From Liolophura sinensis (lineage: Eukaryota > Mollusca > Polyplacophora > Chitonida > Chitonidae), in the NCBI RefSeq assembly GCF_032854445.1, contig NC_088302.1, positions 15,185,338 through 15,249,337 of the forward strand: a stretch of DNA of 64,000 nt, given 5' to 3'. The notes under the pieces are model-generated. The model did not search any database. It saw only the letters and a list, made by a program, of their open reading frames with translations, and was not told the origin of the DNA. A program made the translations under genes and the position numbers. Below, piece by piece: positions 5,691 through 62,347 of the stretch; the stretch's first letter is position 1; every line of letters begins with the position of its first letter.

Positions 5691-5837
5691 CGGTGTATTT
5701 GTGTACAGACTTTGGAGGTCCAGTTTGAAAGCATGTTCAAAGTGTACTCCAACCAGTTTCATGTGTCCTGCAAAATGCTTCCTTGGTGCTGGCCTGATGA
5801 CATCAATTTTTTTTTTCTGTGAATAAAATACAAATTA

Positions 5838-6048
5838 TTTTTTTTTTTTTATATGATTGGTGTTTTACGCCGCACTCAAGACTATTTCACTTATATGACG
5901 GCAGCCAGCATTATAGTGGGAGGAAACGGGGCAGAGCCCAGAGGAAACCCACGACCATCCGCAGGTTGGTAGCAGACATTCCCACGCAAGTCCAGAGAGG
6001 AAGACTTCCGGCTGGACTTGGACTCACAGCGACTGAATTGGTGAAAAA
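5838..6048 (-). mobile_element. tRNA-derived SINE, family 1, minus orientation
   Basis: Read on the plus strand it starts with the T-rich reversed tail and GATTGGTGTTTTACGCCGCA, then TTCACTTATATGACGGCAGC, the GGGAGGAAAC block, ACCATCCGCAGG and GACTCACAGCGACTGAATTG. It matches the longer copies at 53812-54045 and, reversed, 50066-50316. The head is truncated. Confidence 0.85.
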
Positions 6049-8300: not shown

Positions 8301-8611
8301 AGGTATGTGTACATATATACTGTGTTTTTTTGTGACAGGTACCTGGCATATCCTATACCAAACTATATTCAACTTTCTGATTCACTATGGCAGTCAACAA
8401 CTACTATAGCATGAAAACTTTTTATAAGCGCTGTATACCTATGCAGGGCAGCAGAAAGTGAAATCATGCATGCATTGGGGGCATACATAGTTAATTTTGG
8501 GCTTGAGTTTTTTTTCTACTTTGTAACAGTATGTAACTAGTCGAGTGGATGGCGAAAGCTGAACACAAAGCAATACGGGGGGTATATCCTCCTGTCTTTT
8601 CTTTTGTGACA

Positions 8612-8991
8612 GTCATACCTGTTGGAAGACACCGGTGTCTGAATTTATCTAATCCTATACCCATATGACTGTTGTAGCCATACTTGCTGGAAGACACCGG
8701 TGTCTGAATTTATCTAATCCTATACCCATATGACTGTTGTAGCCATACCTGCTGGAAGACATCGGTGTCTGAATTTATCTTATCCTATACCCATATGACT
8801 GTTGTAGTCATACCTGTTGGAAGACACCGGTGTCTGGATTTATCTTATCCTATACCCATGTGACTGCTGTAGTCATACCTTTTGGAAGACACCGGTGTCT
8901 GGATTTATCTTATCCTATACCCATGTGACTGTTGTAGTCATACCTTTTGGAAGACACCAGTGTCTGGATTTATCTTATCCTATACCCATAT
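8612..8991. repeat. 65-bp minisatellite with a perfect 14-bp palindrome in each unit
   Basis: Six copies with an exact 65-bp spacing; ACCGG or its variants fall at 8631, 8696, 8761, 8826, 8891 and 8956. Each unit carries AGACACCGGTGTCT, which equals its own reverse complement; two units have one substitution in it. The rest of the unit is GGATTTATCTTATCCTATAC, CCATATGACTGTTGTAGTCA and TACCTGTTGGA. Confidence 0.95.
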
Positions 8992-10499
8992 GCGTTTCAG
9001 ATGTACTGGACATTGTTAAATAATTTCATTTTTCTTGAAATTAATATTTATAGAATATACGCTACATGTTAATACTACTTCATTTTTAAATGTTAGTATG
9101 AAATACATTCCCACATTCTGCGGTCTATATCCCTGAAATAAACTTACCTTACAACAAACCCATTTCAACAATCATGTAACAGTTCAGCAACTGTGCAATT
9201 AGTCCCGATATACTAAATTTCACTCGGCCTTGAAGGCAGCCGGTGTGTTCGTCGAACGATCATTGTTTTTTTGGCTTTGACGGGCAAGCCTGTATGATAA
9301 TTACAGCATTTATATATATCTCCATACCATATCGTATCATATCATATCATATCACCTATGTTATTAAGGGAGACAATCAGAGTACTTTTAGATACAGGCT
9401 ATCTCACGCTTGACTGGATGCAGTGGACCGCACCAGACCGCTCCCACGCTTGTACTGGCACTTGGAGCTAAGATAGTGAGGCATATATAACCTATATAAC
9501 GCAGGACTAAGAGCCACCCAGTTGTGGCATGGAAAAATCGCCAGTGTTGTTCACCCATGTTATATGCCGTACACGGCAGCCGTTCTGAAAATCAGTATTG
9601 ACCGCATTAAGTGTCATCTGTAATCCTATACATCTTTCTGTATGGACCGCGCCCTCGGCTGACGCGCACCACTGCCCTGGCAAGATTGAAGGTGTGGTCA
9701 GTGGTTGTCAGTGTGCAGGCCATGTGGTTAGGGGAGTAACGGGCAAGGGTGGGCAAAGTTGACCTTACAGTGTGTATCGGCACGAGTGGGCTTTATTACG
9801 GAGGTACGTATATGCATGCGCTGTAACCTGTTGATGGCGTGTAGAAATGTGTAGATCCATACAGACTCTTGTAACGAACAATGACTGACAGCTGTTTAAG
9901 GTACAGTCCATTGTAAAGGCCGTGCTCTAGGGGATACAGTGCATGTGTGACAGTCAGTGTATACTGTAGGCAGGGCCCGATGCGTGTACAAACATAGGCT
10001 TTATACACTACGGTGCACGAAGTGCGGTATCATAGAACACCCGCGATTTTAGGCTAATTATGGTACCTGTAAGGCCTATACGTGTGGTTATGGATAGGGT
10101 TTTTTTTTTTTAAATCTTCATGCGCAGTACATTGGGATGCCAGGCCTAAAGGGTATGCTGTATTACCGTTATATACATGTAGGTATTGTAACTGTTTCCA
10201 CTAGCTGTTGTAGTATACATGTCAGCACTTATGTAAAGGGTACATTATGTTTATACAACCGTCACAATATGGCTGGTATAAGATGCAAAGACTGCGTTAT
10301 CTAGGTTATGATTCGACCCCACCGAATGCTAGACATGCCTCTCAAAACCCGCCCCAGTTTGCTCTCTGTTGAGTACTATGCACGGATTTAAAAAGCAGGT
10401 TATTACAAGGGCTGCCTGACCTAATTCAAGTCGGTTTCTATGGCAACGCGTTATAGCGGCGCGGCGCGAATAACAAACTGCCGGAATACGCCTGAGACT

Positions 10500-12891: not shown

Positions 12892-15800
12892 ATGTTCAGT
12901 CAGATAGTTTATACCCTGTTTGGCGCCGTGGGGGCAGGTGCCCTCGTGGTAAAGTTTTGCTTTCCCTGGGTGCTCTATGACATATCCTACCTGAGAACAA
13001 TGAACAAAGCCATCAGCAAAATCACCAAACGGGCTAAGAAAAAGGAGATGTTAATCGACATATTCGAAGAAGTAACGAAGGCGAACCGAAACAAGACGTT
13101 CTTCGTGTTTGAAGAGGAGACGTTTTCTTACGAGGAGGTGGAGGAGAAATCTACCCGCGTGGCTAGAGGCGCCATGGCTCTGGGGGTGAGGTGTGGGGAC
13201 GTCGTAGCCATGATGATTGCTAATGAACCCCGCTTCATCTGGACGTATCTCGGTAAGCACCAGTGGGGAACGCTCCTAGACAAAGGAAATCGGTTCCAAG
13301 CCGTAAAAAAGCACGCTATTATTGCGTGGTGTTGCGCTGCAGTGCTTTTGAAGTGCCTCTTTGCTTTAATAACAACACAACTGTGCAGAAACAGTGACGT
13401 GTTAAAGAATGGAACAGGTTAGGGATGCACAGCTTAGACCAACTTGTTTTAATAAATCTTTAATATTTCTGCTTGAAAAGGACATTTGGACATTTTCCGA
13501 TTGTAGAATAGTAACTTCAAATGAACATGTTACTTCTGTATGTTAGGATAAGCAAGTTGTACCTCCATTCCATTTGATGTTTTGCATTGCGATCACTTTA
13601 TTAACTTATGTTCTAGAAATTTTCTCGGTGTTCACGTGGAATATGGTTGCGTGTATACATTAGTCTGAGATTTAGAAATGAATTCAGTTATTTCAAAGGC
13701 CGCAGAAGGAACGAAACAACATTTGGATTCGAGTCTGCCACCTCATTGACCACGTGTCCATAGAGAATAACGTTTCAGACAAAAGAACAAGCGAGATACC
13801 TTTTTTCTTTGATGACGGATGAATATTTTAGTGTCAATATGTATTTGTTTTTTCCAGGATTTCTAAAGTTAGGAGTGCGCATGACGATGATCAACACGAG
13901 CCTCAAGGGGAAGCAACTCCTTTTTCAACTTCAGACGGGACAGCCTAAACTCCTGATCGTAGGCGAAGGTAAATTTTATGATTACCTACTTTCTCATGGG
14001 TTTTGAAAATATGCAGTTGAGCTGGTAAGTTTATTTCTGACAATTTTTCATTACATTTGTATTTTTTTTCAACAAACATGTTTCGAAGAGGAGATGTAGT
14101 TGTATATTTTGGATACGCGTTTGAAGTTTGTGACCAGTGCGTTTAGACCGTGGTTGCCCTAAGCATGTGTAGAGTTTTATATACACCTGTTCATTTCTTT
14201 GTATTCAAACAACAGTATTCACAACCAGTGTGTTTTAGGAAGCCAATAAAACGTTTAAAGTAGTGTAACAATTTCGTGCGATACGCTATCTTTTTGAATA
14301 AATCGACTAGTCCTATGCGGGATCGTCCGACTGGAAGTTTCAATTATGGACATGCCGGTGTTTCCCTTTAAGGGGATTGGTCTGCGAAGAAAACAAAATG
14401 TTAGATCTTGTGTGGAAAGATTCTGTTGAATCATTAAACATCAGGCGGTACAGCAATTCAGACATCGACATGAGGAAAAAATCAGTCACCTAGCAGATTT
14501 TGTGGGTTCTGTAAAGGCAATATCGTCAGGAATACAGGACAATGGCATTTATACATCTGTTCTGTTGTATACCATAGCATTCGTCATTTTTGCCTGCCCC
14601 CGGGATCACGAAGCCATCTTTGACTTAAGTCAAAATTTCTTTAAAATTGTTCTTTCTTATATCACAAAGTCAAAGTTTTGCTTGACAAGATAAATTCTGG
14701 GTAAGTTATTGGACAACAAATTTCAGCTAAAACAATGGGAAGGAACATACCAAATTTAATGACTGAACCTTTGACTTAAGTCTAAGATGGCAGCGTGATT
14801 CCGGGGCAAGAGGTCAAGAATTCAGACACTGACATCGCCACAGAATCAGTCACCTCAGTGATCTATACCAAACATACAGTCAGTAATGAAGTACTTTATT
14901 TTCATGACCCTTTTTTCCTCACAGATTTCGTGGACGCTGTAAAGGCTGTGTCGTCTGAAATAAAGGACACTGATGTGTACACATACGGAGACAACTGTCC
15001 GTCCACTCCCTTCCAGTCTTTTGATGATGTGTTGGCGTCAACGTCAGCGACGACTGTTGACCACAGTGTCCGTACCTCTGTGAATGTTTCTGACGTCGCC
15101 TGCTATATATTTACATCAGGAACTACAGGTTTGTAAGCCTCCCTGTTAAGGCTTAATTAAGTTTAAAGAGCTGTACAGTACGCGTTCAGGTTCACCAAAC
15201 GTTGGTCAATGCACAAAAGTTTCAAGGTATATATGACTTCAGGTTAGGCGGAAAAGCAGTCACGATTCCGCATAACTAACGTATTTGTAACGATTCAAAC
15301 ATGAACATGCGTGCAGCAGCCTTCAAAAACAAACGAAATTGTAGTTATGCTTTGTAGGTATAATTTCGGCTATAGGCCTAAATTCTGTTGCAGTATTTTT
15401 ATAACAAAACGACGAAACGGGGTCAACGTCATTAATATGTGTAAAGTCGCTCAATATTGCCTTTCGTCAGTGGCAGGTAACACCAAATGCTCAGCAAGTC
15501 GATTGGCTAAAGTCCATGTATTGTTGCAAAGGAAATGCTGTTAGAGTACTTTTTCTATTTTATACTTGTAAGCTTGTTTAAGAAAGCATGACTCCATTGC
15601 TGGGGGTGACTTATGATAATTATTAGAAAGCAAATGTTCAGTCATATATTATTTGACATCATTCCAGGACTTCCAAAAGCCGCCTTATGTACTCAGTACA
15701 AACTGCTTGCCGCCTGTCATATTCTTTCTGCCAGCGGTATGACGTCAGAGGACACTCTCTACCTCACATTACCGCTATATCATTCCTCAGCTTTAGCTCT

Positions 15801-30904: not shown

Positions 30905-33900
30905 ATGGGAGAGCGTACGAATGATGTGATGACCACCAAGAAACCCAAAACAGCCTTCACTATCGAAAGTATTCTGGGGTTAACGGATACTCAGACGAAA
31001 GGTAAGATGTATATTTGATTTTTCTGCATTATAAGGTTTCTCTTGTCTTTGTAGTGATACAAATACCTGTGCGTACATACCTAATGAAGACGACTGGAAA
31101 ATTGATTACTGGATAAAGCATTTCTTACTGAAAGTTACTAGTGTACAAAAATAGATTTGTATGCACAAATTAATTTAAGAAATCCAAAAAAAGTTTGGTT
31201 TGATGTATACAAAACGTGTATATCATTTATCATTTTTTTGGTGTAAACTTTACCACTAAATTATTAAGTGTAGATGACATGGAATGTTACTTGAATTTTC
31301 ATTTTCTTCTTCAAGAACATGTCGATTTCACTTAAATTTTAGTAACAATGAACACAACGTTAAAAAAAGAGCTCACATGCTTTTGATATTGAAGCATTTT
31401 GAAAAAGAAAGGTTAAATGATGATATCTGCTGTAGTAGAGATTTTAAAAAGTATTTATTTATTTACTTAATTGGTGCTTTACGCCACACTCAAGAATATT
31501 TCACTTGTATTCTAAAAAGTAATTTGGCTGCCATCTGTAGTTTCAGCAAATCATATAACACAGACGCACTGGATAAGCAAAATTATCAAAATTAAATGTG
31601 TTTAAATTATTTAATTTTATTAATGCAGTTGAGTAAAATATATCGTATCATAATTTATTTTCAGTAAATCCGGTGGAAAAGAAGCCTGATATAAAAGTAC
31701 AACACTGTCGTGACGATTATAGACTGATTGGATGGAATTTGGTGCAAGACAAATCTCTCACCAAAGTTACGCCGAAACGACAAACACTATCAATCGACAA
31801 GTTATACACCGGCATGAAGCAATCAAACACTCACAGGCCCAAAAGTCCACCATCTCAAAGACCACTGTCAGAGGATGAGAAATGTATGGACGTGGATAAG
31901 TTTTTAGAATCGACGCCATCTGGCGTTAAGTCCAGGAAGATTCGGCGCTGCAGGACGACGTTCACGACGTATCAGCTTCACCAATTGGAGAGAGCGTTTG
32001 AGAACACACAGTACCCAGATGTCTTCACCAGAGAGGAGCTAGCGTTGAGTTTAGACCTTAGCGAAGCCAGGATACAGGTAAGTCACCAAGGACAAATGTT
32101 TCTGGTGAATTTATTCATATACTGTTTGGGGTAACATTTTTATGGCAATGCTCTAGTAACGTATGAAAAGTTCCATTTACATATCTCTGTAACGCTTTTG
32201 TATAGCAGCCTGTACATAAGGATGGGGCTATATAACACGGAAATTCTGAAACACCCACAAGACTCAGGTTAAGGAGATGCTTATACATCTTCATTAAGGC
32301 TTCGCAAATCCAACTCTCCCATTCCAGAGTTAAAGAGATGCTTACAACATCCCCAGATCCGGGTTAAAGAAATGCTTATACATCCCCAGATTCGGGTTAA
32401 AGAAATGCTTATACATCCCCAGATTCGGGTTAAAGAAATGTTATACATCCCCAGATTCGGGTTAAAGAAATGCTTATACATCCCCAGATTCGTGCTAAAG
32501 AAACGCTTATACATCCCCAGATTCGTGCTAACGAATCCTTACACATCTCCAGATTCGAGTTAAAGAAATGCTTATACATCCCTAAATCGGGTTAATGCAA
32601 GTTTTATACTGATAGCAGAGTTCATACTGAAGGCGGTTGATGAATTATTAACAGTTTCTACTAACTAAAATCTTTAATTAACGTCATCACAGTTCAAGGT
32701 ATGCCACAAAAATGTATATGTCATAAAAGGTCCTTCAATGTGGTACTAAGTTTAAAGTCAACCTGAAAAATAAAGACAACGAATTTGAGTGACAGTAACG
32801 ACCTTTGTTTCGTCTTGCGAACATATGCAGGTGTTAAGCACACAGTTGCACCTTGTTTACGTTAATTTATTTGTTACGATTTTCTGACATCTGCCATTTC
32901 AATATCTGTTAATGAATTCTGTTTGTGCAGCTGTTAATATAGGAATTGATACAAAAAGTTAATTATCATGGTCTAATTACAACTGATACCAGTTAATTGT
33001 CCACGATTTGGGTTTCGGTTGGTCCCTGGTAGCCACAGAGGGTGGGGTGGAAGATTTTGTGATTAGGAATGGCTGGAGTAACCAGCCGGACACCCGAGGA
33101 CAAACACTTCAGAGGCGGGGTGATGAGTACTCCTGGAGCGTTTTGTGCGTGGCCTGTTTGTTTTAAGATTTTTTATGAAATAGGCGATTATTGATAAACA
33201 CTGGAGCGGGTGTGTGCTGTAGATTATGACACTTTGGCACGCCCCCTTTATGGACAGGGCGCCGAATGGGGTATTCACTTTAACACTGAAAATAGCAAAG
33301 TTATACTTTCACATATATACACGCAACGTTCAACGCTTTCCTTAAGCACAAGTCAAGTTTATAAAAAAAAAAATTAATAACAAATTATAGGTGATTATTT
33401 TAATGAAAGTTCATTAAGTCAGCTGAAGGATTTCAGTAAGATGGAAATGGATTAAACAACTAAATACCTGTTGCTTAGCACACTAAACACCACTTAATTC
33501 CTGTCAAATTGTGCAAAGGTTACCTGTCCAGATTATATCAGCTTCAGGCAGGTATGCCCCATTAAGGTGACAAGTGTACTTCAGACCAATTATCTCATCA
33601 TATAGTTAACATTTTCATGAGTCGTCTAAATGATTTTATTTCCTATTGCCAATAATAATTTTAATTTTTACTTTCAGGTGTGGTTTCAGAACAGACGAGC
33701 CAAATGGAGAAAGCAAGATAAATTTGTCACTGAGCGTTCTCCTCACCTGCTGGAAGATCAGCCAATCACAGCCCCCGTTACATGTGCCTCGCCGTCTTCA
33801 AGTCACATGACCAGTCCAGAACAACTCACGCTGTGGATGGGTCAGTACCCACCAATGGCGGCCGCCTCCCCATTGTTTATATACCCGAGTCTCTTCCCTT

Positions 33901-33983
33901 CGTCTCCATCAGGCCCTTCACAGGGATCTTACACCCTCTGTCGTCTTTCCCCAAGAGGGCTTCTCTCCATGGATGTACGGTGA
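30905..33983 (+). CDS. hbn: Homeobrain-type prd-class homeobox transcription factor
   Basis: A DNA-binding transcription factor of the Hbn family (anterior brain patterning; often linked to rax and otp in invertebrates). Exons: 30905-31001, 31665-32077 and 33678-33983, phases 1 and 0, 271 aa. Residues 17-26 hold [10 protein letters not shown], an octapeptide/eh1-like Groucho-recruiting motif. The homeodomain is residues 125-184: [40 protein letters not shown] and [12 protein letters not shown], with Gln at position 50. The intron splits homeodomain codons 46 and 47, the usual prd-class site. [12 protein letters not shown] and LDLSEARIQ favour Hbn over Arx, Alx or Rax. The C-terminal part is Ser/Pro-rich and I see no OAR motif. 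Just before the stop another frame reads [11 protein letters not shown] and stop, so a small frameshift at the very C-terminus is possible. The start has an in-frame ATG 12 bases after an AT-rich leader. Confidence 0.9.
31447..31512 (-). mobile_element. SINE family 1 tail fragment in hbn intron 1
   Basis: TATTTATTTACTTAATTGGT, GCTTTACGCCACACTCAAGA and ATATTTCACTTGTATTC match the reversed 3' end of the family 1 SINE. Confidence 0.75.
32266..32597. repeat. 33-bp minisatellite in hbn intron 2
   Basis: About eight copies of GGGTTAAAGAAATGCTTATA then CATCCCCAGATTC. Because the unit is a multiple of three it stays open on both strands as an 11-residue repeat, but it lies within the intron that splits the homeodomain and is not thought to be translated. 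Confidence 0.9.
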
Positions 33984-35179: not shown

Positions 35180-35390
35180 AAGGTGCCAATGCGGCGCAAT
35201 GATCCAGGAGCCTCATTTTTGCTTCCTCTCTGGTCGTACATGAGAAAGGCTGCCAGCAAAATGTGGATGACCATAAGTTTCCTCCGGACTCTGCCCAGCT
35301 TCCTCCCAGCATAATGCTGGGCGCCGTCGTATAAGTGCGGTATTCTTGAGGACGGCTTTAAACACCTATCAAATAAATAAGTAAATGTTT
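35180..35390 (+). mobile_element. tRNA-derived SINE family 1
   Basis: AATGATCCAGGAGCCTC, AAAGGCTGCCAGCAAAATG, CAGCATAATGCTGGGCGCCG and TCGTATAAGTGCGGTATTCT are followed by TTGAGGACGGCTTTAAACAC and the tail ATCAAATAAATAAG. The head with the B box is missing. Confidence 0.8.
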
Positions 35391-36815: not shown

Positions 36816-38823
36816 TCATTTGAACTCTTCATCGTAGTCCACTGGGCCATAGTCCGGCTGGGGCAGGGGACCGTAGTCTGGCGGCTGACCGCCTTCAGGC
36901 CCGGGAATAAGGGGGTCTTCCTCCAACAAGCCGGGCGGGATGAAATCTGGCAAGAAAAGGTGAATGAGTACAAAATGTGCGGTAGTAAATATACAAATAG
37001 GGTCCCCGCACATTCGGGACACACGACAAGGCCTGTTCTAAATTACCTCCCTTGTTGCACGACTTCGATTAAACATAACGCGAGGTTATTTTTTAAGGCG
37101 TGAAACTACGAGATGTGGGACCTCGTCTGCTAAAACATGCTGTATGTAGGTTATGAGACCACAACGACAAATATTTTCTAAGCAACAGAATGTGAAAAAA
37201 CATGATGTCAGCTTTCGAAAGTCTCAGAAATGTCGATAGATCTTTAATAGAATAAATGATTTGCAGCGGCTTGAGAGTCCGAAACTCTTTAACCAGCCTA
37301 CGCGACTTTGACTCCGAAACGTGTCATTACCCGTTCTATGAGGTCCCACATAACCACAGTTTACCTTTGACAACGCACCTTTGTAACGGGAGAGTAACTT
37401 ACAATGAGGTAATTCGCTACTGTCCAATTATAGTATCTATCATATAGCATCAAATATTTTAGTTCATATAGCAACATGTGTAAATCAAATTATATAAGAT
37501 GCTTTGGTTCATGTATCAGTCCACCTGTAGGCCTGCATATCGTTTCTTTCTCACTGTTACAAATGTAGTAATACTGACCAGTTGTTTTGTTTCTTACCGT
37601 TAATGAGATGTTTTATTCTTACAGTTAAACCTGTACACCAAATCAGATCAGATGTTTTTTTGTTTCTTCCCGTTACACCTGTACAACAAATTAGATCAGA
37701 TGTTTTGTTTCGTACCGTTACATCTGTACACCAAATCAGACCAGATGACCATCTGTTGTGAGAAACAGAAGACCCCGAGTCGTCCACCTCTCAGCGAAGC
37801 GTCGTAGATATTTCCGGTGTCGGCCACAAGAGACGTCTCTTCAAATAACAGTACACTGTAAAAGGTAACAATGACAACACATTGACTGACTGCTGGTTGA
37901 ACAACGATTACTACAATCTTACCTGTGATTTAGATCAAAGCCTTTTTAATCAAGGGCAGAGTTCAAGCTTGTTATAAATTGTTTACATCCTGTTGTCAAC
38001 TGTGTTTTGTTTGTTTCCATACCGTGAACGCTGAACATTCTGGTGGAGAAAACATCACTGAGACTTGGTCACTATGCATTGTTTTAATATTAGTGTAAGT
38101 TAAATGTGATGATAACACAACAGTTTGAGTAATTCTAGACCGGGGAAGTCTAACCCCTGCATTTTAGCTACCTAATTCTACGTATGCCATGGTACTAGGG
38201 GGCGGGCAATGTGCTACTGTTAAAGCAATTACATAAGCAATTAGAATAAAACCGTAACTCAGCTGTATTTCACCAGTTACGTGTGAGAAAACTGTCAGAA
38301 CATGACTCGTAGGAAATCCCCGGTAATAAAATTATTAATTAAATTTAAATGTTATAATGTTTGTACATAACACAATGACTAATACACCTTAAGTGAAAGG
38401 AAAATTTCAGTTGAACGATAGTTATTTACTTCACCATTCTTACAAAGGAAGGACTACGTAATCGGTAATGGCAGAAGCAGCCAGTGTACAATCTGCTTTG
38501 TTAAATTATTCTTTGCTTGTATGTTGAAACCCTGGTATAGATGTCACCAGAGTTATACCCCTTACCGTATTAAGCCTCTGGCTGGACGATGTATCAGCTC
38601 CCACCTGTATGCAGTCCTTTCTTTCCAACCAACGTTTCGGGGATCCTTCCACAGAAGTTTGACCTGTCGTCATCAACATGAAATTATCTTTGATAACTTA
38701 AAAGCCAAAAAGGTGATTTATATCTGACAGACCTACGTTATCGGGGCGCTCATTGTCTCTATCGTACCATATAGTGAAAGCTGTGCGATTACTTGCACAG
38801 CATCGGCTAATTTTAACATCACA

Positions 38824-45600: not shown

Positions 45601-48600
45601 TTTGAATTTGAAACGTGTAATTTCTGACGTCACCATTTAGTGAGACTACTTATTCGTGTGAAAAGTGGGTTGTATTTTGGCGCTAAGTACAGATGCGCCA
45701 TTGCAGTTTGGCTTTGTGACAACATAACATGTTAACACATGATTTTAAAACGTGACATGTACTACTTCACCGGCCTAGTAAGTGTAAAGCAACCATTAGT
45801 TCATTTATAATTTCACCACGATAAGGCGTTTTACCGAATTCTTGATAACTCCATCATCACATAGTATTTTACCGGATTGTAGGTAATTCATTATGATTTG
45901 TTTAGCATTTTTACCGGATTGTTGATAATTCCATCGTTATTAAGTATTTTACCGGATTGTTGATTATTCCATCGTTATCGGCGTCGTCATCACAGGCATC
46001 TCCTAGCCCGTCCAGGTCCGCATCTTCCTGCCCGCTGTTAGGGGTCAGCTTACAGTTATCCTAGATGAGAAAAGGTGGGTTGAAAAATTGAGAACAACCC
46101 AATATGAAAGCCATTCTCAATGCGGATGCTGAAATGTTTAAAGGTATTAACAAGATTTCTTGTACTTTAACAAAACGTACATTTAACACTGCAAACCTAT
46201 GAGAAATTTGCCCCCTTCTACACACAGATTTTTTTGTCATAGCTCTTACAATCAACGATTAAAAGATAACTTAAATAATATTTACAAAATTTGATTGTAG
46301 GTGAGTATATAATGTGAAAAAACGCGACACCAGAGTACCCTGTCACTGGCACTATGACCCATAAAGCCCACCTTAAAATTTAAACACTTAAATGCATTAA
46401 ATTCCAGTTTAAAATAGTCCAAAAAGATGTAAAAATGTACTATCTGGCCATGCTTAATTGTGAGCTATCTTTTTCTGTACACATTACATGATTAAAAGAA
46501 TTCCTAAAATGAAATTGGAAAATGGAAAAAAAACTTTCTCAAAAGCACTTCTGATAATCTGGAATGAGCACAAATTTCAAGCTTTCAAACCTTCAGGAAA
46601 TTTTGCATCAAAACAAGGTTTAACAATTATAGACATGACCAGCGTTGTTATTAAGATGCTAATCTTATCATGTCATCACCTTGCGACATCTCCTGTCGAG
46701 ACAGTCTGGAATGGCGTCGTCTGGCAATCCGTCAAGATCCGTGTCTCGCACACAGTGGAACCCGTCCCCAGCAAAACCTATACTACACTGTAAAACATAT
46801 AAAATGCTGAATCATCTTGCTCGTTTACGACATTTATAAATAGTTAATTCTCTGTAAAACGATACAGTAAATCAACCAAAACAATATGTGATCCCAACAA
46901 CGCTGAAAGTGAATGAATCCCAAATTTTTTTCATCACAATCTATAACATTTTAAAGATTGGAGATTCAGGATGAATATTTGTAAGAAACCTCTGTCCCTG
47001 GAACTGCATGATGTACACAATTGTAGTCACAATGTTGCCACATGTATTATGTAAGGCAGAGAAGCAGGCCAAATTGTTTCATTTAAGATTAAAATTTTTC
47101 AAATTTTAAAGAATGGAGCAGATGTATGACGTCATTACTTACCTCACAAAGATAGCCGTCGTGACCCCGTCGTTGTAAACAGTTAGCGTTGACGTCACAT
47201 TTTGTCCGTCCGTCTGGACACACATTGCCGGATTTTCGACAGCCTACGGTCTGGTTACCTATGAACCCTGGCAAGCAGTCCCCACACTGACGGGAGCCCT
47301 GGGAGAGACGAGCAGAATGTCAGCGGCGACAAGGGAGGCAAAGAAATGTAATCTGGGCATAACTTGTGTAGGCTATTATTCATTTTATACCCTTGCGATG
47401 GCGTTTGCAAAATTGCAAAAGAAAAATGTTCCATATAGAGCAGAATGTAGTCTGCATTACCCGGGAAAAGGTACCCACTGAAAGGAAAGTCAGAGTTATA
47501 TCAGCAACATTATCATATTTCATATTGTTTTCTCATAAGAAAATGAGATGACCAGACAAACTGGCTATAAATTTTGATTTCAAATTAAGTGAAATATTTA
47601 CAGAAAGATGAGTTTATTAAGCTGGAGGAAACTGGCGTTTCCATACTGTTTTATTGAATGAAACTATAAAGAAGGCTGCTGGACCTGAATTTGATCTCTC
47701 TTTGGAAGGACACCTTCCACAGATTCTATCAACGCAGATACTTCAAACCATTATCCTGGTTTTTTTCTCACAATCTGTTTCGATCATTAATAGTAAAACG
47801 TAATGGAGAAACCAGCGACTGAAATGTTTCACACAGTGGAGTGATGAGTACAATCAGAACTGTCAAATCAATGAGCCATCATCTAAAATAGCACAATCTA
47901 TTCCTTCGCTATTAACTACAACCATCCATCAACAATTCAATGAACACAGCAAATCCACAGCTAATAAATCAGTCAACATCTGAATTAGCCTGTTCCATTT
48001 TTTACAACTTATTTCAGCCATCCACTGATTTATCAATTCAAGGCATCGCCGTACATACCGGGGTGTTGATACACTGTGAGTTTGGTACACATCCACCGTT
48101 GTTTCCGTCTTCACACTCGTTCAGATCTCTGCAAACCTTCGAAGATAACGCAGAAATATTGCCAATTAATGTTACATTGGTATAAGTTTGCTGCAGATAC
48201 GTGTAATACACGCATAATGTAAATGGGAATTACAAATTGGCACTATATCCTGAGCAAAAATCAACACAGTTGCCTTATTACCAGAATTTTAGAGAAATTA
48301 TTTTTTGTTTTTTTTCTTCTTTGTTACCTGTTTGTGCCGTTGGGCAAACTCAATGCCAATTCCTTCCAAGGGCGGAGCAGTGTATCCCAGAGGGCACGGG
48401 GTGCACGTGAACCCTGGCTGAAGATTCTCGCACGTGGCTAATCTGTCACATGGCCTACTGTAGAGACACTGGGAAAAACATCATTCTTTTTAAAAACGGG
48501 CTTCATTTGTTCATTTTTACGCGATCAAACATGATTAGTCTGGAGCTCACTCGCAAGAGATGACCCATTAGCGATGGATAGTCTTTTCGTTTACACTATT

Positions 48601-51600
48601 TTATTACATTCACATATTTCCTTCATTGGTGCTTGGCATCTTGTTGAAGAACATTTAATATAGCAGATTATGGGTAAAAGACTTGAATAACCAATAGAAA
48701 AAGCAAGTCTTTGGCACCTAGATTTACACAAAACCGTTGCTTTCACAATAAGATGAGTTTCATTTTATGTTATTGCATATCGAAATGTTCATAACTCACC
48801 TCGTTGATATCTGTGCAGTGCGTACCATTTCCGGTGTAACCAACAGGACACGGGCCGCACTGGTAACCAACGGGTGTGTCCTCGCACGCAACTCCAGGGA
48901 AACAAGGTCTGGAGGAACATGTGACTATAAATGGTTTACATCCGTGAAGAGTTCCATCCCCTGAATAGCCAGGTGGACAAGGCCCACACCGGAAACCACT
49001 GGCGGTATCATAGCAACGAACACCTATGAAATACGTGAACAGAATAGCACAAGGCCAATCGTATGAGTTAATCTAAGGACTTAAAAAAGTTATAACAAGT
49101 TCTAACATACTCGATGTTAGATATTCTAAATAAAGAATATTTTCATTGATACCAACTCTTCACATTCTTTGATAAGCTTAATGGTGGAACCTTTTTGTAA
49201 TAGGGCCATTTTCATGACAGCATTGTAAGACTTGGCAGAATAACATTCAAACTTCCTTTATATACTTATAAAACCAAACATTAACTTTCATCCTGTTTTC
49301 ATCAACAGGAAGGCTAGACGAAAGGTCCCATGGAAAAGTAAAACCTGTTCCGTCGTATGAGTCATTTGTATGTAAAGGGGCAACTCAAATACTCACTGTA
49401 AACTTTAAATCAAAAACAAGTATAACACAAGAAAAGAAAATGTTTAAAATGAATAATCCCAACATTCGGTAAAATATATAATATGAAAATCAAACGACAA
49501 GTACACCAAGCAATTTTCCATGATGTTAGGAAAGCATGTTACATTTCACAATTGTAAACGTTTCTGTTCATGTTATACAGGCCGACACATTACACGCCTG
49601 CCCCTTTAAATCTGTCCTCTTACCTGGATAGCAGGGCTTGTCGTTACAAGTCTCATAGGCTGTACAGGTCTCTCCATCCCCATAATATCCCGGGGGACAG
49701 GGCCCACAGCGGAACCCTAACTCCGTGTCGATACACCTTACCCCCGGGAAGCATGGCTCCGATGAGCATCGTCTTCGTACAGGAGCGGAGCGGTTGTCAC
49801 CACCTAAGAAGGACAAGGTAATTGTGAGTTATTCATATTATACCCGGAAGAGGAGGATGGGGGTGGGGGTGTGTGTAGGGGGGTGGGTGGGTTGGGAGGG
49901 GGAGAGGTATAAACCGCCATACGTGGAAACAAAACTGATGATTTTAAATACTCGATGTGTTCTATTGATGTACTCTACAAACATGTAGTGTGTGCATCGA
50001 AGACAATTCAATGTTATCCACAGGCTGCGATGCCTTTTGAATGTAAGATCATTAATTTAGCTGGAGGCCTCCGAGGGCTAGTGGTTAGCGTGCTTGAGCA
50101 GAATAATGACCCAGGAGATTCTCAACAATGTGATCGCAGTTCAAGTCCAGCTCATCCTGGATTCCTCTTTTGTTGTACGTGAGAAGGTGTGCCAGCAATC
50201 TGTGGATGGTCGTCGGTATCCCCGGGCCATGTCCAGTTTCCTCACACCACAATGCTGGCCGCCTTCGCACAAGTGAAATATTCTTGAGTAAAAACTCAAA
50301 ATAAATAAATAAATAAAGTTCTATTAATGTAGTTCACGTACCTCTGCACATGGCACAGTTTTCCAGAGTAAGTCTAAGCTCACGAGTTTCGCGCGTCTGC
50401 AAGAACAAAAGGAAGCATATCTTTTAGACCATTGTAAAACGGGATCTTGAAATACCAAAAAATTAACTAATACTTTTTGCGGAAATTTGCTACGGGTGAC
50501 TGAGACCTTACATAAGGATGAAACTGATGTTACAAAGTTTCCTCTGACGTCAACATTAAAAGCGGGCTTACAAAATCCACGCAAATTTTAGACAACGATT
50601 TAACGAAGAATTTCTGTAAAACCATGACAAATAGTGACGTCATTACCTGCGACTGGAATTCCCTCTTCAACTCCTTTACTGTTGCGGTGAGTTGTTTCAA
50701 GGCCCCGAGCAAGCCATTTTGATCGCCATCTATTGTATACGGTAAGAAAGAAAAATATTCAGCAATGCGTAATAGTGTGTATTACCCGTTACATTAAGCC
50801 TGTCTGTAATAGTGTGTATTACATGTGACCATTTCACATGTAATAGAGTGAACATGTATGTGTGCAACGGTGATGCCGTCTACAAGAGTATTCACTGCTT
50901 GCACGAATGTGCATTATCTGTAACAGTGTTCATTATCTGTGTTCATTACCTGACCCTGTGTTCTTTACATATACCAGTATTCATTACAAGTACCCGTATT
51001 CATTAGATGTACCAGTGTTCATTACATGTACCAATGTTCACTACATGTAACAGTTTTCATTACATGTAACAGTGTACTGTATTTTGTATACCTGTGTTGA
51101 TTACGTGTACCAGTGCTGATAAGGTGTACCAGTGCTGATTAGGTGTACCAGTGCTGATTACCAGTGTTTTTTACCTGCACAAATATTCACTCCCTTACCA
51201 ATCCTGATTACCTGTTACAGTGTTATTTACCTGCACCAGTGTTTACTCCCTTTACCAATGCTGATTACCTGTAATAGTGTTGACAACGTGTACCAGTGTC
51301 CACTCCCTTACCAATCCTGATTACCTGTAAGTATTGATTACATGTACCAGCGTTGACTACCTGTAACAGTGATAATTGCCTGTACTGGTGTTCACTCCCT
51401 TTACCAACGCTGATTATCTGTAACAGTGTTATTACCTGTAACAGTAATGCTATCGGGAATAGTGTTGGTGTCCTCGTCGGGAAGCACTGGCCTCTGGAAT
51501 GTCGGTCTCGTGTCTTCCGCGTCATTTTTGGTGGGAGAAAAGCTGCTGGACCAGGAGGGAATTTCCAGCACGGGCGATTCCTCTCCAGTCTGGGGAGGGG

Positions 51601-54600
51601 TAAGGATAGCGCCTTCACAACCCTGCCCCTTTAACACCGTCGGTAACGTGGTTTGCATGTAGACGTCAAAGTTCTTGTGGAGAGACTGACAATGTAAATT
51701 AAAGTATGTATATATAAAAACACTGTGGTAATCGTTAAAGAAGTAACAGCAAATTAAAATGAAAGACAGCACCTGACTAATGTTTATATCCACTGAAACA
51801 CAACCATTCAAAGTATCTTAAACCGGCATTAAATGAGTTTTTTCAACCGAGTAAAAGTTTAGTGAATCTTTGTCTTGACATATTTTAGTACGTCTCCATT
51901 ATCGAGGGCAAGGCGTAACGTTTTGCTCTAGCTCTCTAACGTCCAAGGCATTTTCCGTATAATTTTTCTGAGCAGTAGCCTATGACAGATAAAAGGTGTG
52001 GATGAAGGTCCAAGTGATAAATATAGTTTTCTCGGAATTGGGCACACTGGAAAAATATGTCTTCTACTGCTTGAACTACTGATACAGTAGGCCTACTATA
52101 TGACTTATAAAGAACTCGAGCCACCCCATTTCAACAGCCTAGCTGCAGATGCGCGGCCGGAGTATTCCTGTTTCAGATAGTATCCTGAGGAGGGGTTATA
52201 CTGGTGATTTTCACCCCTATTAAATGTTTACAAAATTACAGTACGACCGTTGCACAGCTAGACTCATGCTCAGTAAACCCAAGTACCACTGCGGGTCATC
52301 TAAGCATTCGACTGTCGCTGGATTTTATGCTTCAATTTTGTAGCGGTGGCTTCTAAGATGAAACCAGTGCTAATCTAGTTATCGCGGACGTCAGAGATAG
52401 CACCTCGGCTTGAACAACAATTTTACTGTATTTTATCAAATAAAACAGGAAAAAACACCCTTGTATGCAAGGAAGAGGAGGAAGCAAAATTTAAATCCTT
52501 CAGTTGTAATCGATTCAGAGAAAAAAATTACATAAGATTTTTAATTAATTTTAAGCGTTGTCCAGAGAGATGCCGTCTTCTAATTCCCACAAACGTTTGG
52601 CATCCCTATTGTAGTTTGCAGTGACTCTGATCTTTGTTATTTAGAAACTGCTGACTAAACGCTAAAAGGAACGACAAAAAATGTATTTGGGGAGATGAAT
52701 GCGGTTTTAGCCTGGACAGTAAGCTACTGTCTGACATAATTTGTGATATTATCGTTGAATATTATGCGGCTTTTAAATCAACTAATTTTATGTCTGTGGT
52801 GGTCCGTAAATAATACAGACCTGCCCCACAACATTTTGGGAAATGGCCGTTCTGCGTCACTTAACTAAATGGTTGTAAACGATCTCAAAATGATGTCTTA
52901 GGCTGTGGTTTTGTGTTATCATATGTCACTTCACGTAGGGTAAAGGCTACGTCACAACTTAGGTTGAGTAGAACTCTCAAGATGGCTGCCTTGACTCACA
53001 CCAGCCATTTGTGCACTATTGTCATTTTCTTCTACATGCTGTTCGGTGAAATCTCATTAAAATAATAAAACATCATACTTTTTAGAAAGTTTGAGTATCC
53101 TACTTTCGACTGAAATTTGTTTTAGCCAGATGCTGTCTTGTCCTTTAAGCAGTGAAGGCTAGTGAATGTAGAGGTCACTGTTAGATCTTACATTACATTA
53201 CAGGTATATATTTTCAGTGTGCTTACACTAAAAAAAATTAATCTGTTAATTTTAACAGAAAGTCTTTTGTTTGAGTGATGCTAGAATGTATACTCTTATT
53301 GCAACAGACTATTCTGTTAAATATGACTATACATCTTCTACTCATTGTACATAAAGATAATAGGATGTTATTCTGAATATGACACAATATTGTTTTATGA
53401 CAACAGAATACATTCTAGCATCACTCAGACAACAGATCTCTGTTAAAATTGACAGATTAATTTTTTGAGTGTAGATACAGTAACAATTTTGAATTTTGCA
53501 AAGTGTAAACCTCTTCTCATGGATGTAGGAAAGTCAATCACAGCATTCCGTATTATTCTGCAAAAACTGCCAGACAGTTGCACGCTGAAAAGGTGCATCC
53601 ATTTTGAGGGAGAATGTAAGGTAAAGCATATGTGCCAAGAGACACTGATGCGAAAGAATTTAAAGGAAAAGAACACTTAAAATTAAGGTAATCTTCAAAT
53701 ATGTCATCAAAACCTGCAACGTCTAATAACTATCTTTGGCCCATGCTATAATATTTTCCACACCTTATTAAGTGCAATCAAATATATCAGCCCTTGTTGA
53801 TTTTAATATATATATTTTTTTTTTTTGATTGGTGTTTTACGCCGTACTCAAGAATATTTCACTTATACGACGGCGGCCAGCATTTTGGTGGGTGGAAACC
53901 GGGCAGAGCCCGTGGGAAACCCACGACCATCCGCAGGTTGCTGGCAGACCTTCCCACGTACGGCCGGAGAGGAAGGCAGCATGAGCTGGTCTTGAACTCA
54001 CAGCGACCGCATTGGTGAGAGGCTTCTGGGTCATTACGCCGCGCTAGCGTTGATTTTAATAGACGGTAGGTGTATTTGTAGTGTTATACTAAATGGCGTC
54101 ACGTCTATTTTCTACAGATGTATTCACCTGTATATAAAAATCGTATTCATTAACTTTATTCATGTAAATACGTCACACAGTACAGCTGTTCTGACATCAT
54201 ATGTTCTGTTCAGTGGTGACAAAAAAATCAGTGTGACGTCATAATGCATGTTTGGTTCATATAGACCACGAAAGGTATTAAAAATATTTTGGTGCATTTA
54301 GTTTGATTCTGAATGGTTTATACATGCCTATATGGTAACCTCACAAACCTAACCAATGAAAAAGCAAAAACAAAATTATGTAAAATTACCGGTAAACTAT
54401 AGACAAATAAATAAAAACTAATGGTAAGTTGTCTAACGTGGATCAAGTAAACAGCGAAACAATAATTGTAGCACGCAATTCAAGCATTTCCGTTGTGAGA
54501 TATCCGGCCACGTGATATCAAGTGCGCAATTGCACTTACAGGGTGGAATACATGTTGTTGTAGTTTAGCCTAACACGACATTTCGCATGCCTTGATTTAT

Positions 54601-60600: not shown

Positions 60601-62347
60601 CTGGCCTCCAAAGAGTGGGTGTAGTATTAAATAAAAGTATATTCAGTTGAAAATCCCGGAATGCATTGACACACAGAACCGTTCACATATGTATAGATTT
60701 ATACAAACAGTTTATGCACACCCTCAATTTAATGCATATTAACAAGCCTTTCAAAACATTTTACTTAAAAAAAAAATATATAAAAAACGTTAACAGACAT
60801 GTCTAGGCGTACAGTTAACCTTGTACAGTTAGCTGCAAGATACTACAAGTAGATAAACTTAACCCACACGTAGATATGCGACTCTACAAGTACATGCATA
60901 TTTTCCATCCTGGCCGTATGTACCAAATGGTGAGCAACATTGGTAGACACAGACGCGGTATATTTATTTATTTATTTATTTATTTGGTGTTTTACGCCGT
61001 ACTTAAGAATATTCCACTTAGACGACGACGGCCAGCATTATAATGGGATGCAACCAGGCACAGTCCGAGGGAAACTCACAACCATCCTCAGGTTGCTGTA
61101 AGACTTTCCCACGGAGACGTGGTATACAGAAACTGTACCTGTGAACCACAGAACAACAAAGAGAACTGAGAAAAGCCTCAACTGTAAAGTCTAGAAAACA
61201 TATTGTATAACTAAAGATTATAACCATATACAAAGTGAATAAAACAAATAGCAACATTTGTTATACGTTACCTTGAGGTGTGGCGTAATCCATATAAACA
61301 TCAAATAATGTACTTAGCGAAGGGTTTTCAATCCTGAGTAAAGACATTTTCCCCCGCTTTTCTGCTGTTCTTAACGCTTCCGGAAAGGAACACTTCTGGG
61401 CTCAGCATGAAGGCTGTGCCAATGTCATTTCTGGAACTACAAAGAAACAGTACACAGTTATTAGCATTTATAAATTTCACGCAATAGGCTTGAAGTAAGT
61501 TTCAAAAATTCAAAAATTTCATAAAATGTTTTGATTCGTATAATCGTGGTATAGTAGATTTCTAAAACTGATTTCCATGCAAAGCAGGGCGAATTTTTCT
61601 ACGTGAGTTCCAGAATGTAATTACCAAATATTCGCGTGAATCAGTCACAGGAATCTATCTGGATTCCGAAAGAAAGATTAAGATCTGTACCTGTCTGAAC
61701 AATTAGGTGTTTATCTCTGATACAGCTTGTATTTTATCAATAAATAACAACTGAAATATACAGCAGTCTAAAATTGGATTCATTCCAACGGAATCCGTTT
61801 GGATTCAGACCAAATTCGACGAAAAATGAGACTTGCAAAACATACTCCCAAACTATATGGAGGAAAGGCAAACTGAGGAAAAGGTGACGTGTATACCTAA
61901 CGCAAAGCGGTAGGTAAACACGTCACCACACCTGTAATTGTGATTTGTAAAACAGACAAGACAGCGAACGTTTCCCTGACGGTCCAATGTGTATGGTCTG
62001 ATGAAATTGTTAAGCCATGGTCTATCCACTGAGCTAGTAAATGAATGACACGAATCACTGATACTTAATTTCCACAAGCACTCAACAAACTGCATGTCTC
62101 AACCTAAGTGAAGGGTTGAAAACTGAGCATAGTAATAAAGTTTTCTAAACATAGAACTAAACAGGCATAAATGTGCATATCAGCTTAAAGATATCATTAT
62201 TCAAAGTAAATAAGATTTAACTTTTTATGTCAAAATTTCATTTCAGTTCAAAAATTCGAAATTAAGAAGTGTCTTACCTGATCGAGCTGAGATTGCACAA
62301 TCTGTAACAAGGGCAGGAGGAGTAAGACAAGAAGCAGAGAGATCCAT
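36816..62347 (-). CDS. THBS4-like: Thrombospondin, COMP/THBS4-type (pentameric group)
   Basis: A secreted, calcium-binding, oligomeric matrix glycoprotein. Twenty-four exons were placed on the minus strand: 62278-62347, 61272-61395, 57659-57873, 51436-51685, 50647-50729, 50342-50396, 49624-49803, 48800-49023, 48328-48468, 48059-48136, 47143-47298, 46680-46787, 45953-46060, 45189-45354, 44469-44587, 43705-43757, 41893-41978, 41277-41372, 40300-40478, 39616-39664, 39012-39283, 38566-38663, 37716-37855, 36816-36946. All borders are AG/GT, every phase matches its neighbour, and from the signal-peptide frame the sum is 3180 bases, 1060 codons with stop. The order is signal peptide, N-terminal domain, coiled coil, six EGF-like domains, type 3 repeats, C-terminal domain. 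No type 1 or procollagen modules are seen, which fits the group B thrombospondins. The start is uncertain: the only nearby ATG is one base out of frame. Confidence 0.95.
37596..37755 (-). repeat. Tandem copies of the exon 23 3' end with its splice donor
   Basis: On the plus strand, CGTTACATCTGTACACCAAA followed by TCAGACCAGATG is the true exon 23 end plus donor. It recurs as CGTTACACCTGTACAACAAA with TTAGATCAGATG (37667-37700) and AGTTAAACCTGTACACCAAA with TCAGATCAGATG (37621-37656), then a partial CTTACCGTTAATGAGATG (37596). The 37621 copy keeps a donor (GTAAG on the minus strand); the 37667 copy has lost it. Confidence 0.9.
38828..38893. repeat. (TA)n dinucleotide repeat in thrombospondin intron 21
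   Basis: An uninterrupted TA run of about 33 units between exons 21 and 22. It can form a cruciform and its length is prone to assembly error. Confidence 0.95.
40300..46060 (-). CDS. THBS4-like: Thrombospondin type 3 calcium-binding repeats (exons 13-19)
   Basis: Asp-rich repeats that wrap many calcium ions in the family. Exon 13 opens with [20 protein letters not shown]. Exons 14-18 carry DNCP words ([94 protein letters not shown]). Exon 19 has [20 protein letters not shown] and runs into the C-terminal domain. Around seven DNC and a regular ladder of DxDxDG loops are visible. Many introns here begin after the first base of a Gly codon, so repeat units and exons are partly in register. Exon 12 already contains [10 protein letters not shown], the start of the block. 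Confidence 0.95.
40541..40625 (-). mobile_element. SINE family 1 tail fragment in thrombospondin intron 18
   Basis: TTTATTTACTTATTTGATTG, GTGCCGTACTTAAGAATATT and TCACTTACAAGACGGCTGCC match the reversed tail; sequence beyond about 40625 is diverged. Confidence 0.75.
40807..41150 (-). mobile_element. tRNA-derived SINE family 2, nearly complete, minus orientation
   Basis: On the minus strand the head reads CAGTTGGTAGAGCCAACGC (A box) and CAGGGTCAATCATGGG (B box region). The body includes CCTTAATGCTGAACACCAAG and GAAGGCAAGTAAGCCGCCCC in plus orientation, and the tail is GGGGTTTAACGTCGTACTTA followed by AACAATTTTTCAGTCATATG. A second copy lies at 56655-56835 in the other orientation. Confidence 0.75.
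42417..42500 (-). mobile_element. Diverged SINE family 1 tail fragment
   Basis: TTTATTTATTTACTTATTTA, TGTGATTCGTTG and GGATATGACGACGGTCG resemble the reversed family 1 tail with many substitutions. Confidence 0.5.
43084..43332. mobile_element. 249-bp palindromic MITE, copy 1 (thrombospondin intron 16)
   Basis: The left end CACTCAAAATTAATCTGTTA...TTTTAACAGAAAATG...GAGTGACGCTAG is mirrored by the right end CTGTAGCATCACTCAAATAA...CTGTTAAATTTTACAG...TTTTTGAATGTG. Both ends contain nested AACAG/CTGTT pairs. The interior is AT-rich and non-coding. It is related to 53226-53471. Confidence 0.8.
43430..43650. repeat. Two direct copies of a MITE-like end
   Basis: GGGCCCAGTTGTTCAAAGGT occurs at about 43430 and again at about 43586, each followed by a similar AGTTAA.../TTTAGTCTG stretch. 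This could be a partial tandem duplication of a short element with unclear borders. Confidence 0.5.
44650..44835. repeat. Degenerate tandem repeat of about 33 bp in thrombospondin intron 14
   Basis: About five units of the form CAAAATGTGCCTGGTTGCAY followed by TACATCTTGTAA lie between exons 14 and 15. Confidence 0.7.
45829..45975 (-). repeat. Tandem copies of the exon 13 3' end with its splice donor
   Basis: The true exon 13 end in plus orientation is ATTTTACCGGATTGTTGATT then ATTCCATCGTTAT. It is preceded by three copies: TTTTACCGGATTGTTGATAA with TTCCATCGTTAT (about 45907), ATTTTACCGGATTGTAGGTA (about 45866) and GTTTTACCGAATTCTTGATA (about 45829). ACCGG falls at 45833 (variant), 45871, 45913 and 45951. 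Each copy keeps a potential donor GTAAAA on the minus strand. Confidence 0.9.
46680..49803 (-). CDS. THBS4-like: Thrombospondin EGF-like domains (exons 7-12)
   Basis: Six EGF-like modules are readable. EGF1 ([28 protein letters not shown]) in exon 7; EGF2 across exons 7/8 (CNDKPCYPG then [19 protein letters not shown]); EGF3 ([28 protein letters not shown], ending DINE) in exon 8; EGF4 in exon 9 ([14 protein letters not shown]); EGF5 across exons 10/11 ([11 protein letters not shown], a calcium-binding type start); EGF6 in exons 11/12 ([25 protein letters not shown]). EGF1-3 are very alike, so the extra modules probably arose by internal duplication. For exon 10 the acceptor at 48136 (after TCGAAG) was chosen over the one at 48128 because only the former keeps frame and supplies the conserved KQVC. 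Confidence 0.93.
50066..50316 (+). mobile_element. tRNA-derived SINE family 1, near full length
   Basis: Head: GGGCTAGTGGTTAGCGTGCT (A box), TAATGACCCAGGAGATTCTC and GATCGCAGTTCAAGTCC (B box). Body: GTGCCAGCAATCTGTGGATG and CACCACAATGCTGGCCGCCT. Tail: CAAGTGAAATATTCTTGAGT then an AAATAAATAAATAAA run. The head-to-tail order defines the family's orientation. Confidence 0.85.
50342..51685 (-). CDS. THBS4-like: Thrombospondin linker and oligomerising coiled coil (exons 4-6)
   Basis: Exon 4 finishes the N-terminal domain ([15 protein letters not shown]) and continues into a Pro/Ser/Thr/Asp-rich linker ([18 protein letters not shown]). Exon 5 is a heptad-patterned helix ([19 protein letters not shown]) and exon 6 continues it ([12 protein letters not shown]). 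The CAMC pair after the helix corresponds to the interchain disulphide cysteines that lock family oligomers; a coiled coil of this short Leu-rich type supports a pentamer, by family knowledge. Exon 6 joins directly to the first EGF exon through a split Gly codon. Confidence 0.9.
50735..51446 (-). repeat. 18-19 bp minisatellite filling thrombospondin intron 4, built of splice-junction-like units
   Basis: Units such as GATTACCTGTAACAGTGTT and CATTACATGTACCAGTGTT run through nearly the whole 706-base intron. The unit next to the exon (TTACCTGTAACAG at 51432-51444) is the true exon 4 end with its donor (minus strand CTGTTACAG|GTAATA). The preceding unit TTATCTGTAACAG at 51414 is 18 bases away. 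Confidence 0.85.
53226..53471. mobile_element. 246-bp palindromic MITE, copy 2, flanked by TA
   Basis: The left end CACTAAAAAAAATTAATCTG...TTTTAACAGAAAGTC...GAGTGATGCTAGAATG mirrors the right end CATTCTAGCATCACTCAGAC...CTGTTAAAATTGACAG...TTTTTTGAGTG. TA on both sides looks like a target duplication, which would suit a Tc1/mariner-type transposase. It is the same family as 43084-43332. Confidence 0.85.
53812..54045 (-). mobile_element. tRNA-derived SINE family 1, near full length, minus orientation
   Basis: It reads, reversed, TTTTTTGATTGGTGTTTTAC, GCCGTACTCAAGAATATTTC, ACTTATACGACGGCGGCCAG, GGAAACCCACGACCATCCGC, TTGAACTCACAGCGACCGCA (B box on the minus strand) and GGCTTCTGGGTCATTACGCC. Confidence 0.9.
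56448..56600 (+). mobile_element. SINE family 1 3' end with an expanded GAAT/AAAT tail
   Basis: CCACCATAATGCTGGCCGCC, CCCGTATAAGTGAAATATTC and TCGAGCACAGGGTAAAA run into about nine AATG units and then AAATA/AGATA units. The simple repeat probably grew from the SINE tail. Confidence 0.8.
56655..56835 (+). mobile_element. tRNA-derived SINE family 2, partial, plus orientation
   Basis: GGGGCAACTTACTTGCCTTC, GGTAAGTCGTCTCAATGAAG, GGTAGAAATCCGTCCTGCAA and TCGTCGTCATATGACTGAAA are the reverse complement of the element at 40807-41150. Confidence 0.75.
57300..57345. other. Long G-run with G-quadruplex potential
   Basis: About 14 consecutive G after TTATC, then CAGGGTCGAGGGAAGGGG. Similar G-rich tracts occur at about 27765-27790 and 49855-49905. 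Confidence 0.7.
57659..62347 (-). CDS. THBS4-like: Thrombospondin signal peptide and N-terminal domain (exons 1-3)
   Basis: Exon 1 carries an evident signal peptide in one frame ([20 protein letters not shown]). Exon 2 reads [20 protein letters not shown], then [11 protein letters not shown], and exon 3 [39 protein letters not shown] and [14 protein letters not shown], consistent with a laminin-G-like thrombospondin N-terminal domain, which is the fast-evolving part of these proteins. The joins exon 1/2 (phase 0), 2/3 (phase 1) and 3/4 (phase 0) all fit. Two problems remain: the well-placed ATG (ACCATGG, 62345-62347) is one base out of frame with the signal peptide, and exon 2 has a stronger-looking acceptor upstream that would bring in a stop. 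Confidence 0.75.
58481..59567. repeat. Imperfect direct duplication of about 0.4-0.65 kb in thrombospondin intron 2
   Basis: Copy 1 (58481-59141) and copy 2 (59147-59567) share TGTACTTGTGATTCGGATTT / TGTACGTGCGATTCGGACTT, CCCCGCGTGTAGA, TTTTTCATAATATGTGTGAC, CTATATACATCC and TTGAAAATA in the same order. Copy 2 lacks more than 100 bases present in copy 1 around 58855-58945. Confidence 0.85.
59568..60960. other. Thrombospondin intron 2, unstructured part
   Basis: I see no exon, repeat array or mobile element in this stretch. It is unique-looking, AT-rich DNA with a GC-richer part near 60410-60610. Confidence 0.5.
60961..61130 (-). mobile_element. tRNA-derived SINE family 1, minus orientation
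   Basis: A TATTTATTTATTTATTTATT tail is followed by GGTGTTTTACGCCGTACTTA, AGAATATTCCACTTAGACGA, CGGCCAGCATTATAATGGGA and ACCATCCTCAGGTTGCTG. It ends before the tRNA head. Confidence 0.85.
61396..62277. other. Thrombospondin intron 1
   Basis: No exon is recognised. The stretch just before exon 2 (61396-61438) contains an alternative upstream acceptor and an overlapping open frame, discussed in the findings. The rest is AT-rich, with inverted GGAATC/GATTCC words around 61650-61810. Confidence 0.5.

Follow-up and report, generated by a model that had tools for sequence, protein, structure and literature searches.

Genes and repeats of the window

The window analyzed here, that is, the whole stretch of 64,000 nt, is part of contig C8 of a chiton genome, which was searched over 609,464,459 bases in 632 contigs. 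It carries on its minus strand a thrombospondin gene whose exons have PDB matches in chains of COMP and TSP2, and in which the EGF-like region, the type 3 repeats and the C-terminal domain follow in order on one strand (Table 1). From exon 4 to the last exon, the modelled exons maintain an open frame across the EGF-like, type 3 and C-terminal regions, the frame being joined in two parts that skip an EGF exon located between I7 and I8; TSP_3 was recovered from Pfam at or below its cut-off. The model begins at exon 4, in the numbering of the original prediction, and comprises 20 introns; the start of exon 4 (on the 51685 side) was picked by eye at a plausible acceptor, and the terminal exon is a candidate called solely by its frame and acceptor. 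No stop codon arises where exon 4 is joined to exon 5.

Table 1. Coordinates of the thrombospondin exons, introns and junction arrays, and of neighbouring features in the window
Feature	Position	Strand	Remarks
Thrombospondin exon 4, linker ahead of the coiled coil	51436..51685	-	250 nt open frame, phase 1 join to exon 5
Thrombospondin intron 4 (I4)	50730..51435	-	706 nt, GT..AG, phase 1
Thrombospondin exon 5, start of coiled-coil region	50647..50729	-	Joined frame
Exonic array part	51436..51466	-	ATTACTGTTACAG = last 13 nt firm, preceding 18 nt probable; cyclic alignment, profile fit
Intronic array, 18-19 bp units	50769..51435	-	36 rows in cyclic alignment, including degenerate and partial ones; TRF
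39 nt free of repeats, with pyrimidine tract and acceptor	50730..50768	-	Unit-profile analysis
Intron I13	45952-45355	-	Preceding exon is a TSP type 3 repeat and aligns with COMP
Second junction array, 38-bp units	45829..45978	-	Spans last 26 nt of the exon ending at 45953 and the start of I13
Intron I23	37715-36947	-	Preceding exon (...SDLVYRCN) aligns with COMP
Third junction array, about 45-bp units	37606..37747	-	End of the exon ending at 37716 and the start of I23
PRD-class homeobox gene	31637-33983	+	PDB comparison, best solved relative aristaless
Degenerate acceptor-side copy, acyl-CoA-synthetase intron F2	14494..14555	+	Local score 48 vs shuffle maximum 35

A neighbouring gene encodes an acyl-CoA synthetase (AMP-binding), which we take to be FATP-like, and the homeobox gene, for which the PDB comparison resolves the PRD class only, is possibly homeobrain or homeobrain-like. 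One study reports finding no homeobrain in Branchiostoma, nor in the other chordates it examined (PMC2938728). The homeobox intron holds a 33-bp array unrelated to its own donor, and a 65-bp array lies at 8611-8992, the minus-strand unit of which carries a strong donor (CAGGTATGA). A dispersed, SINE-like repeat (TTTGATTGGTGTTTTACGCCGTACTCAAGAATATTTCACTT...) is found at 53803-54048, 5836-6044, 50092-50327, 35186-35380 and 60960-61113, and one of its copies sits in thrombospondin intron I6. The dispersed-repeat strings had no match in papers, prokaryote contigs, viral contigs or phage records, and Rfam gave no match at gathering thresholds.

The intron 4 array and the end of exon 4

As originally predicted, intron 4 is filled by a minisatellite of 18-19 bp units, which occupies 94% of the intron (667/706 nt) and comes up to 39 nt from the acceptor; on the minus strand the array covers 50769-51448, probably reaching 51466. 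TRF reported a period of 19 with 27.1 copies at 50939-51445, and cyclic alignment of 51477-50769 to a seed consensus returned 39 rows with 539 matches, 161 mismatches, 9 insertions and 24 deletions, 539 of the 700 aligned letters thus agreeing with the seed consensus in this one assembly. Between 51162 and 51330 the array has a higher-order repeat of three units, about 56 bp, the trimers being 84-88% identical in 5/6 aligned pairs, which implies that growth of the array used more than one step size. RNA folding of intron 4 was unremarkable (z -1.76 vs 20 shuffles).

Bases from both the exonic and the intronic side of a single splice boundary are included in the tandem units, and the claim that the first of them is exon 4's own end plus its donor was borne out: the 19-mer of the exon 4 junction (13 exon and 6 intron bases) has 16 copies at 13/19 or better in its own intron, against a mean of 0.36 and a maximum of 3 in the shuffle control (p=0.001), and ATTACTGTTACAG lies in the register of the array. 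With the register fixed, 2043 13-mers ending in CAG were compared from outside the array, and a single one fits the unit profile as well as this exon end, which scores 13.0 where the runner-up among the gene's 20 exon ends scores 0.9. When any register was allowed the score of the exon 4 end was reached by 143 of 19754 random 31-mers and by 42 of 2000 shuffled versions of exon 4, and the ends of two further exons came close (13.75 and 12.92 vs 15.14 for exon 4). An ungapped 28-mer test gave p=0.086 for I4, the 28-bp window being ill suited to an 18-19 bp unit (the same test gave p=0.023 for the I15 acceptor), and pairwise local alignment was borderline (p=0.052). The expected superiority of the monomers over controls was found in copy number and in fixed register, and was weaker in any register and in the 28-mer and pairwise comparisons; it is from the first two tests only that a junction origin of I4 would receive strong support. 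The 18 exon bases upstream of ATTACTGTTACAG, for which the corresponding fractions are 0.0019 in fixed and 0.107 in any register, probably belong to the array as well.

Further junction arrays in the thrombospondin gene

For every donor and every acceptor of the 20 modelled thrombospondin introns, copies of the junction were sought in the respective intron. Besides the 16 copies of I4 (p=0.001), three were found for the donor of I13 (p=0.002) and four for that of I23 (p=0.001), with no significant excess at the remaining 17/20 donors or at any of the 20 acceptors. The units of I13 and I23 are unrelated in sequence to those of I4, and the gene holds three independent cases of a junction array. 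Local alignment traced the repeats to exon positions -26..-1 at I13 (score 47 vs a shuffle maximum of 30) and -32..-2 at I23 (47 vs 27), both alignments stopping at the junction or beside it. For both arrays the exonic part aligns with COMP; the match is strong in I23 (L.YRCN) and moderate in I13 (D.DG), which indicates that the exon was the source there. The direction from exon to intron is thus fixed in two of the three arrays, and only probable at I4, where the exon end lies in a linker.

The local-alignment survey covered 60 junction sides, with the acceptor ends of F1-F9 one base off. Two more nominally low values, one for the acceptor of I21 (exon +22..+36, p=0.005, its score no higher than the shuffle maximum) and one for the donor of F2 (p=0.015), were treated as chance in 60 tests. 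None of 10 donors in the acyl-CoA-synthetase gene and one homeobox intron, the latter entered only to 1500 bases, was repeated in its own intron. On the acceptor side, the degenerate copy in F2 covers the acceptor and positions +1..+49 of the next exon (exon from 14925; 14925-14973) with a score of 43 vs a maximum of 23, and is probably an old acceptor-side 'mirage', as such junction repeats are called in amphioxus, or a pseudo-exon.

Donor-like copies in intron 4

The original prediction that many further units keep a CAG/GTAA-like core proved generous. GT is kept in 16 of the 29 intronic monomers scored, a count that excludes seven rows nearest the acceptor that are degenerate or partial, and CAGGT in only 7/29; AG/GT is therefore present in many units, though not in all. 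By an approximate human donor matrix, 11 GT sites of intron 4 score at least 5 bits (15.6 per kb, the top of the 20 thrombospondin introns), and I23 comes second at 10.4 per kb. Over a span that opens 60 bases ahead of the I4 donor and closes with the intron, 62 GT sites were examined, of which 8 by the human matrix and 5 by a matrix built from the window's own other donors equal or beat the true donor, so that the predicted string of decoy 5' splice sites is donor-like as far as scores go. Translation continued beyond the true donor runs into a stop codon 35 intron bases on in I4, 42 in I13 and 20 in I23. The first unit would likely remain the donor because nearly all downstream donors would bring a premature stop into the message; it is the reading frame that argues for first-donor use in I4.

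It might be supposed that these repeats are functional, binding U1 snRNP and thereby strengthening a weak first donor or regulating its use. The abundance of donor-like GT in I4 and I23 and the sites that score as high as the true donor would suit such a role, as would a tendency towards weak true donors in I4, I13 and I23 (rank-sum test, p=0.047 by the human matrix and p=0.09 by a leave-one-out matrix of the window's own donors). However, this borderline tendency of arrays to stand behind weak donors concerns n=3, with borderline p values and one approximate matrix, and the donor core is without sign of constraint, positions -1, +1 and +2 being conserved in 55, 76 and 76% of the units vs 71-93% for columns 1-12, while 7/29 CAGGT is about what independent columns would give. 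We consider a functional decoy array very improbable.

Related arrays and array density in the genome

A 15-mer taken across the end of exon 4 has 4 exact matches in the genome, three of them elsewhere, a number not above the control (7). At one of these places, locus L001 on contig C6, a fourth donor-junction array of 123-bp units (753-791 and 782-1559) begins 10 nt inside a probable small exon, the joined frame reading IPAVHVRRDWFTQ followed across the junction by DPVYISVDP..., and holds six junction copies at 15-16/19; its exons, predicted from frame and splice signals alone, had no Pfam match and no significant PDB match. The other two matches, L002 and L003, lie close together in a 45-bp array that has an exon-like stretch next to it; at L002, the one inspected, the units, CACAG/GTAAGACAG, adjoin that stretch.

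A DNA search with the intron 4 array found, besides itself, at least one place (L006/L007), where, on another contig, a 19-bp CAG/GTAAT array of nearly the same core (1424-1751, pieces 71-73% identical) has no exon recognised beside it in the plus-strand frames. A 15-bp array is also present nearby, at 1867-2276 of L006. The original prediction would be weakened by the same satellite occurring elsewhere unrelated to exon 4; within the 64-kb window no match to the consensus at 15/19 or better exists outside the intron 4 array, and in the genome the L006 array does come near to such a case. It lends some weight to the reverse order of events, in which the intron first held a growing minisatellite with a TTAC-AG-GTAA core, whose edge replaced the exon end, the donor now used being a captured unit (intron sliding). 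The end of exon 4, lying in a linker, is probably tolerant of change, and possibly two units stand inside coding sequence, both of which would fit that order; the exonic parts of the I13 and I23 arrays, on the other hand, are coding and COMP-aligned, so that the exon was earlier there. An array that preceded the exon end is, in our judgement, unlikely.

The density of arrays was estimated from 20 stretches of 10 kb taken in 1.6-Mb steps along contig C6, from its start to 31 Mb. Tandem arrays, defined as units of 10-150 bp in at least 2.8 copies, cover 10.5% of this 200 kb sample and 4.5% of the window, and up to 37% of the bases in single 10-kb stretches (L008-L027). On the assumption that arrays ignore genes, the 10.5% cover leads to an expectation of 2.1/20 donors inside arrays, with P(3 or more)=0.35, and at the window's own 4.5% the probability of three or more falls to 0.059.

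These figures bear on whether 5' splice sites are hot spots of tandem duplication, e.g., via transcription-linked structures. The repeated donors (3/20) and acceptors (0/20) of the thrombospondin gene point that way, as does the further donor case of L001, yet the difference between donors and acceptors is not significant (Fisher p=0.115). Nor were donor-like sites in 55 arrays significantly above reversed controls (p=0.10; 10 vs 5 at 7 bits and 23 vs 14 at 5 bits), these 55 including 11 from the window, and the other 44 alone giving 6 vs 3 at 7 bits. The absence of repeated donors among the 10 of the two other genes and the existence of the acceptor-side copy in F2 also speak against such a preference. 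Edges of arrays fall in exons in 3/6 cases, which is above random placement (p=0.015), and in 2/5 without I4 (p=0.034); both tests are post hoc, and the excess leaves room for a junction bias, which we nevertheless hold to be unlikely as the seed of these arrays.

Origin of the junction arrays

We favor, with a probability of roughly 0.75, the reading of I4 as a mirage-type minisatellite produced by ordinary tandem duplication that happened to span the donor; the genome being rich in minisatellites, no junction-specific mechanism is needed. A tandem duplication, by slippage or unequal exchange, would have taken up the end of exon 4 along with its 5' splice site, and later rounds, one of them with a three-unit step, would have filled the intron up to the branch and acceptor region. 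The first unit would have stayed the working donor as the sole one preserving the reading frame, and the downstream copies could presumably decay and remain as unused decoys; in a minisatellite-rich genome, an array that started across a donor may survive in this way. The duplication mechanism, the choice of donor in vivo and neutrality are what we infer. As to the original prediction that the intron grew by amplification of its junction, growth of this kind is well supported by the register and by I13 and I23, while a special link to the junction is not, in view of the L006 array, the near-expected 3/20 donors and the lack of donor enrichment.

A broader proposal would be that junction minisatellites are common and lineage-independent in minisatellite-rich genomes, that chiton junctions have been repeatedly amplified, and that U1-like decoys stabilise weak upstream donors, intron growth and donor tolerance co-evolving; as a whole we regard it as speculative and unlikely.

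Comparison with known systems

The structure of I4 appears to be of the kind described as 'mirages' in amphioxus, here in a mollusc. The portions of the amphioxus papers concerned with these repeats list Adh3, the globins BflGb6 and BflGb9, TnC and PGBD5, with unit lengths of 10-72 bp for Adh3 and 150-160 bp for the globins, AG/GT retained in many but not all units, either boundary possible, and RT-PCR suggesting undisturbed splicing (PMC3087553, PMC3902484); one of them considers junction mirages as possibly general in cephalochordates (PMC3087553). The chiton array likewise spans an exon-intron boundary and keeps AG/GT in part of its units, and differs in its mollusc host, in making up 94% of its intron with 18-19 bp units and in being one of three independent cases in a single gene. 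Splicing and length instability were examined for the amphioxus mirages, whereas the chiton arrays are known from the genome sequence. Junction minisatellites thus occur in a mollusc too, three times in one gene. Among the literature matches listed, in a search mostly outside subscription papers, no report of junction-spanning arrays in molluscs was found.

Short tandem copies with AG/GT also recall the intron gain by AGGT tandem duplication of the Rogers model, for which the source, in the part concerned, gives 24-bp arrays in fission yeast and vertebrate ATP2A1 (PMC4974935). That model requires a duplicated segment giving both the 5' GT and the 3' AG, and was rejected here because the I4 acceptor sits in 39 unrepeated nt, outside the array, which consequently did not supply the 3' splice site, and because 0/20 acceptors of the gene are repeated; moreover, nothing marks I4 as a new intron. 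In human segmental-duplication genes, minisatellites with a mean unit of 30 bp are described, in the relevant part of the report, as expanding at exon-intron boundaries (PMC2812944), and the altered introns there are transcript-supported, unlike the chiton case, seen in genomic DNA. The intronic minisatellites of an earthworm metallothionein gene are not described as junction copies in the corresponding section of that paper (PMC12783039). Set beside these systems, the chiton arrays offer a simple null, namely that junction minisatellites are to be expected wherever minisatellites are dense, and a natural test of how the spliceosome chooses one donor among many similar copies.
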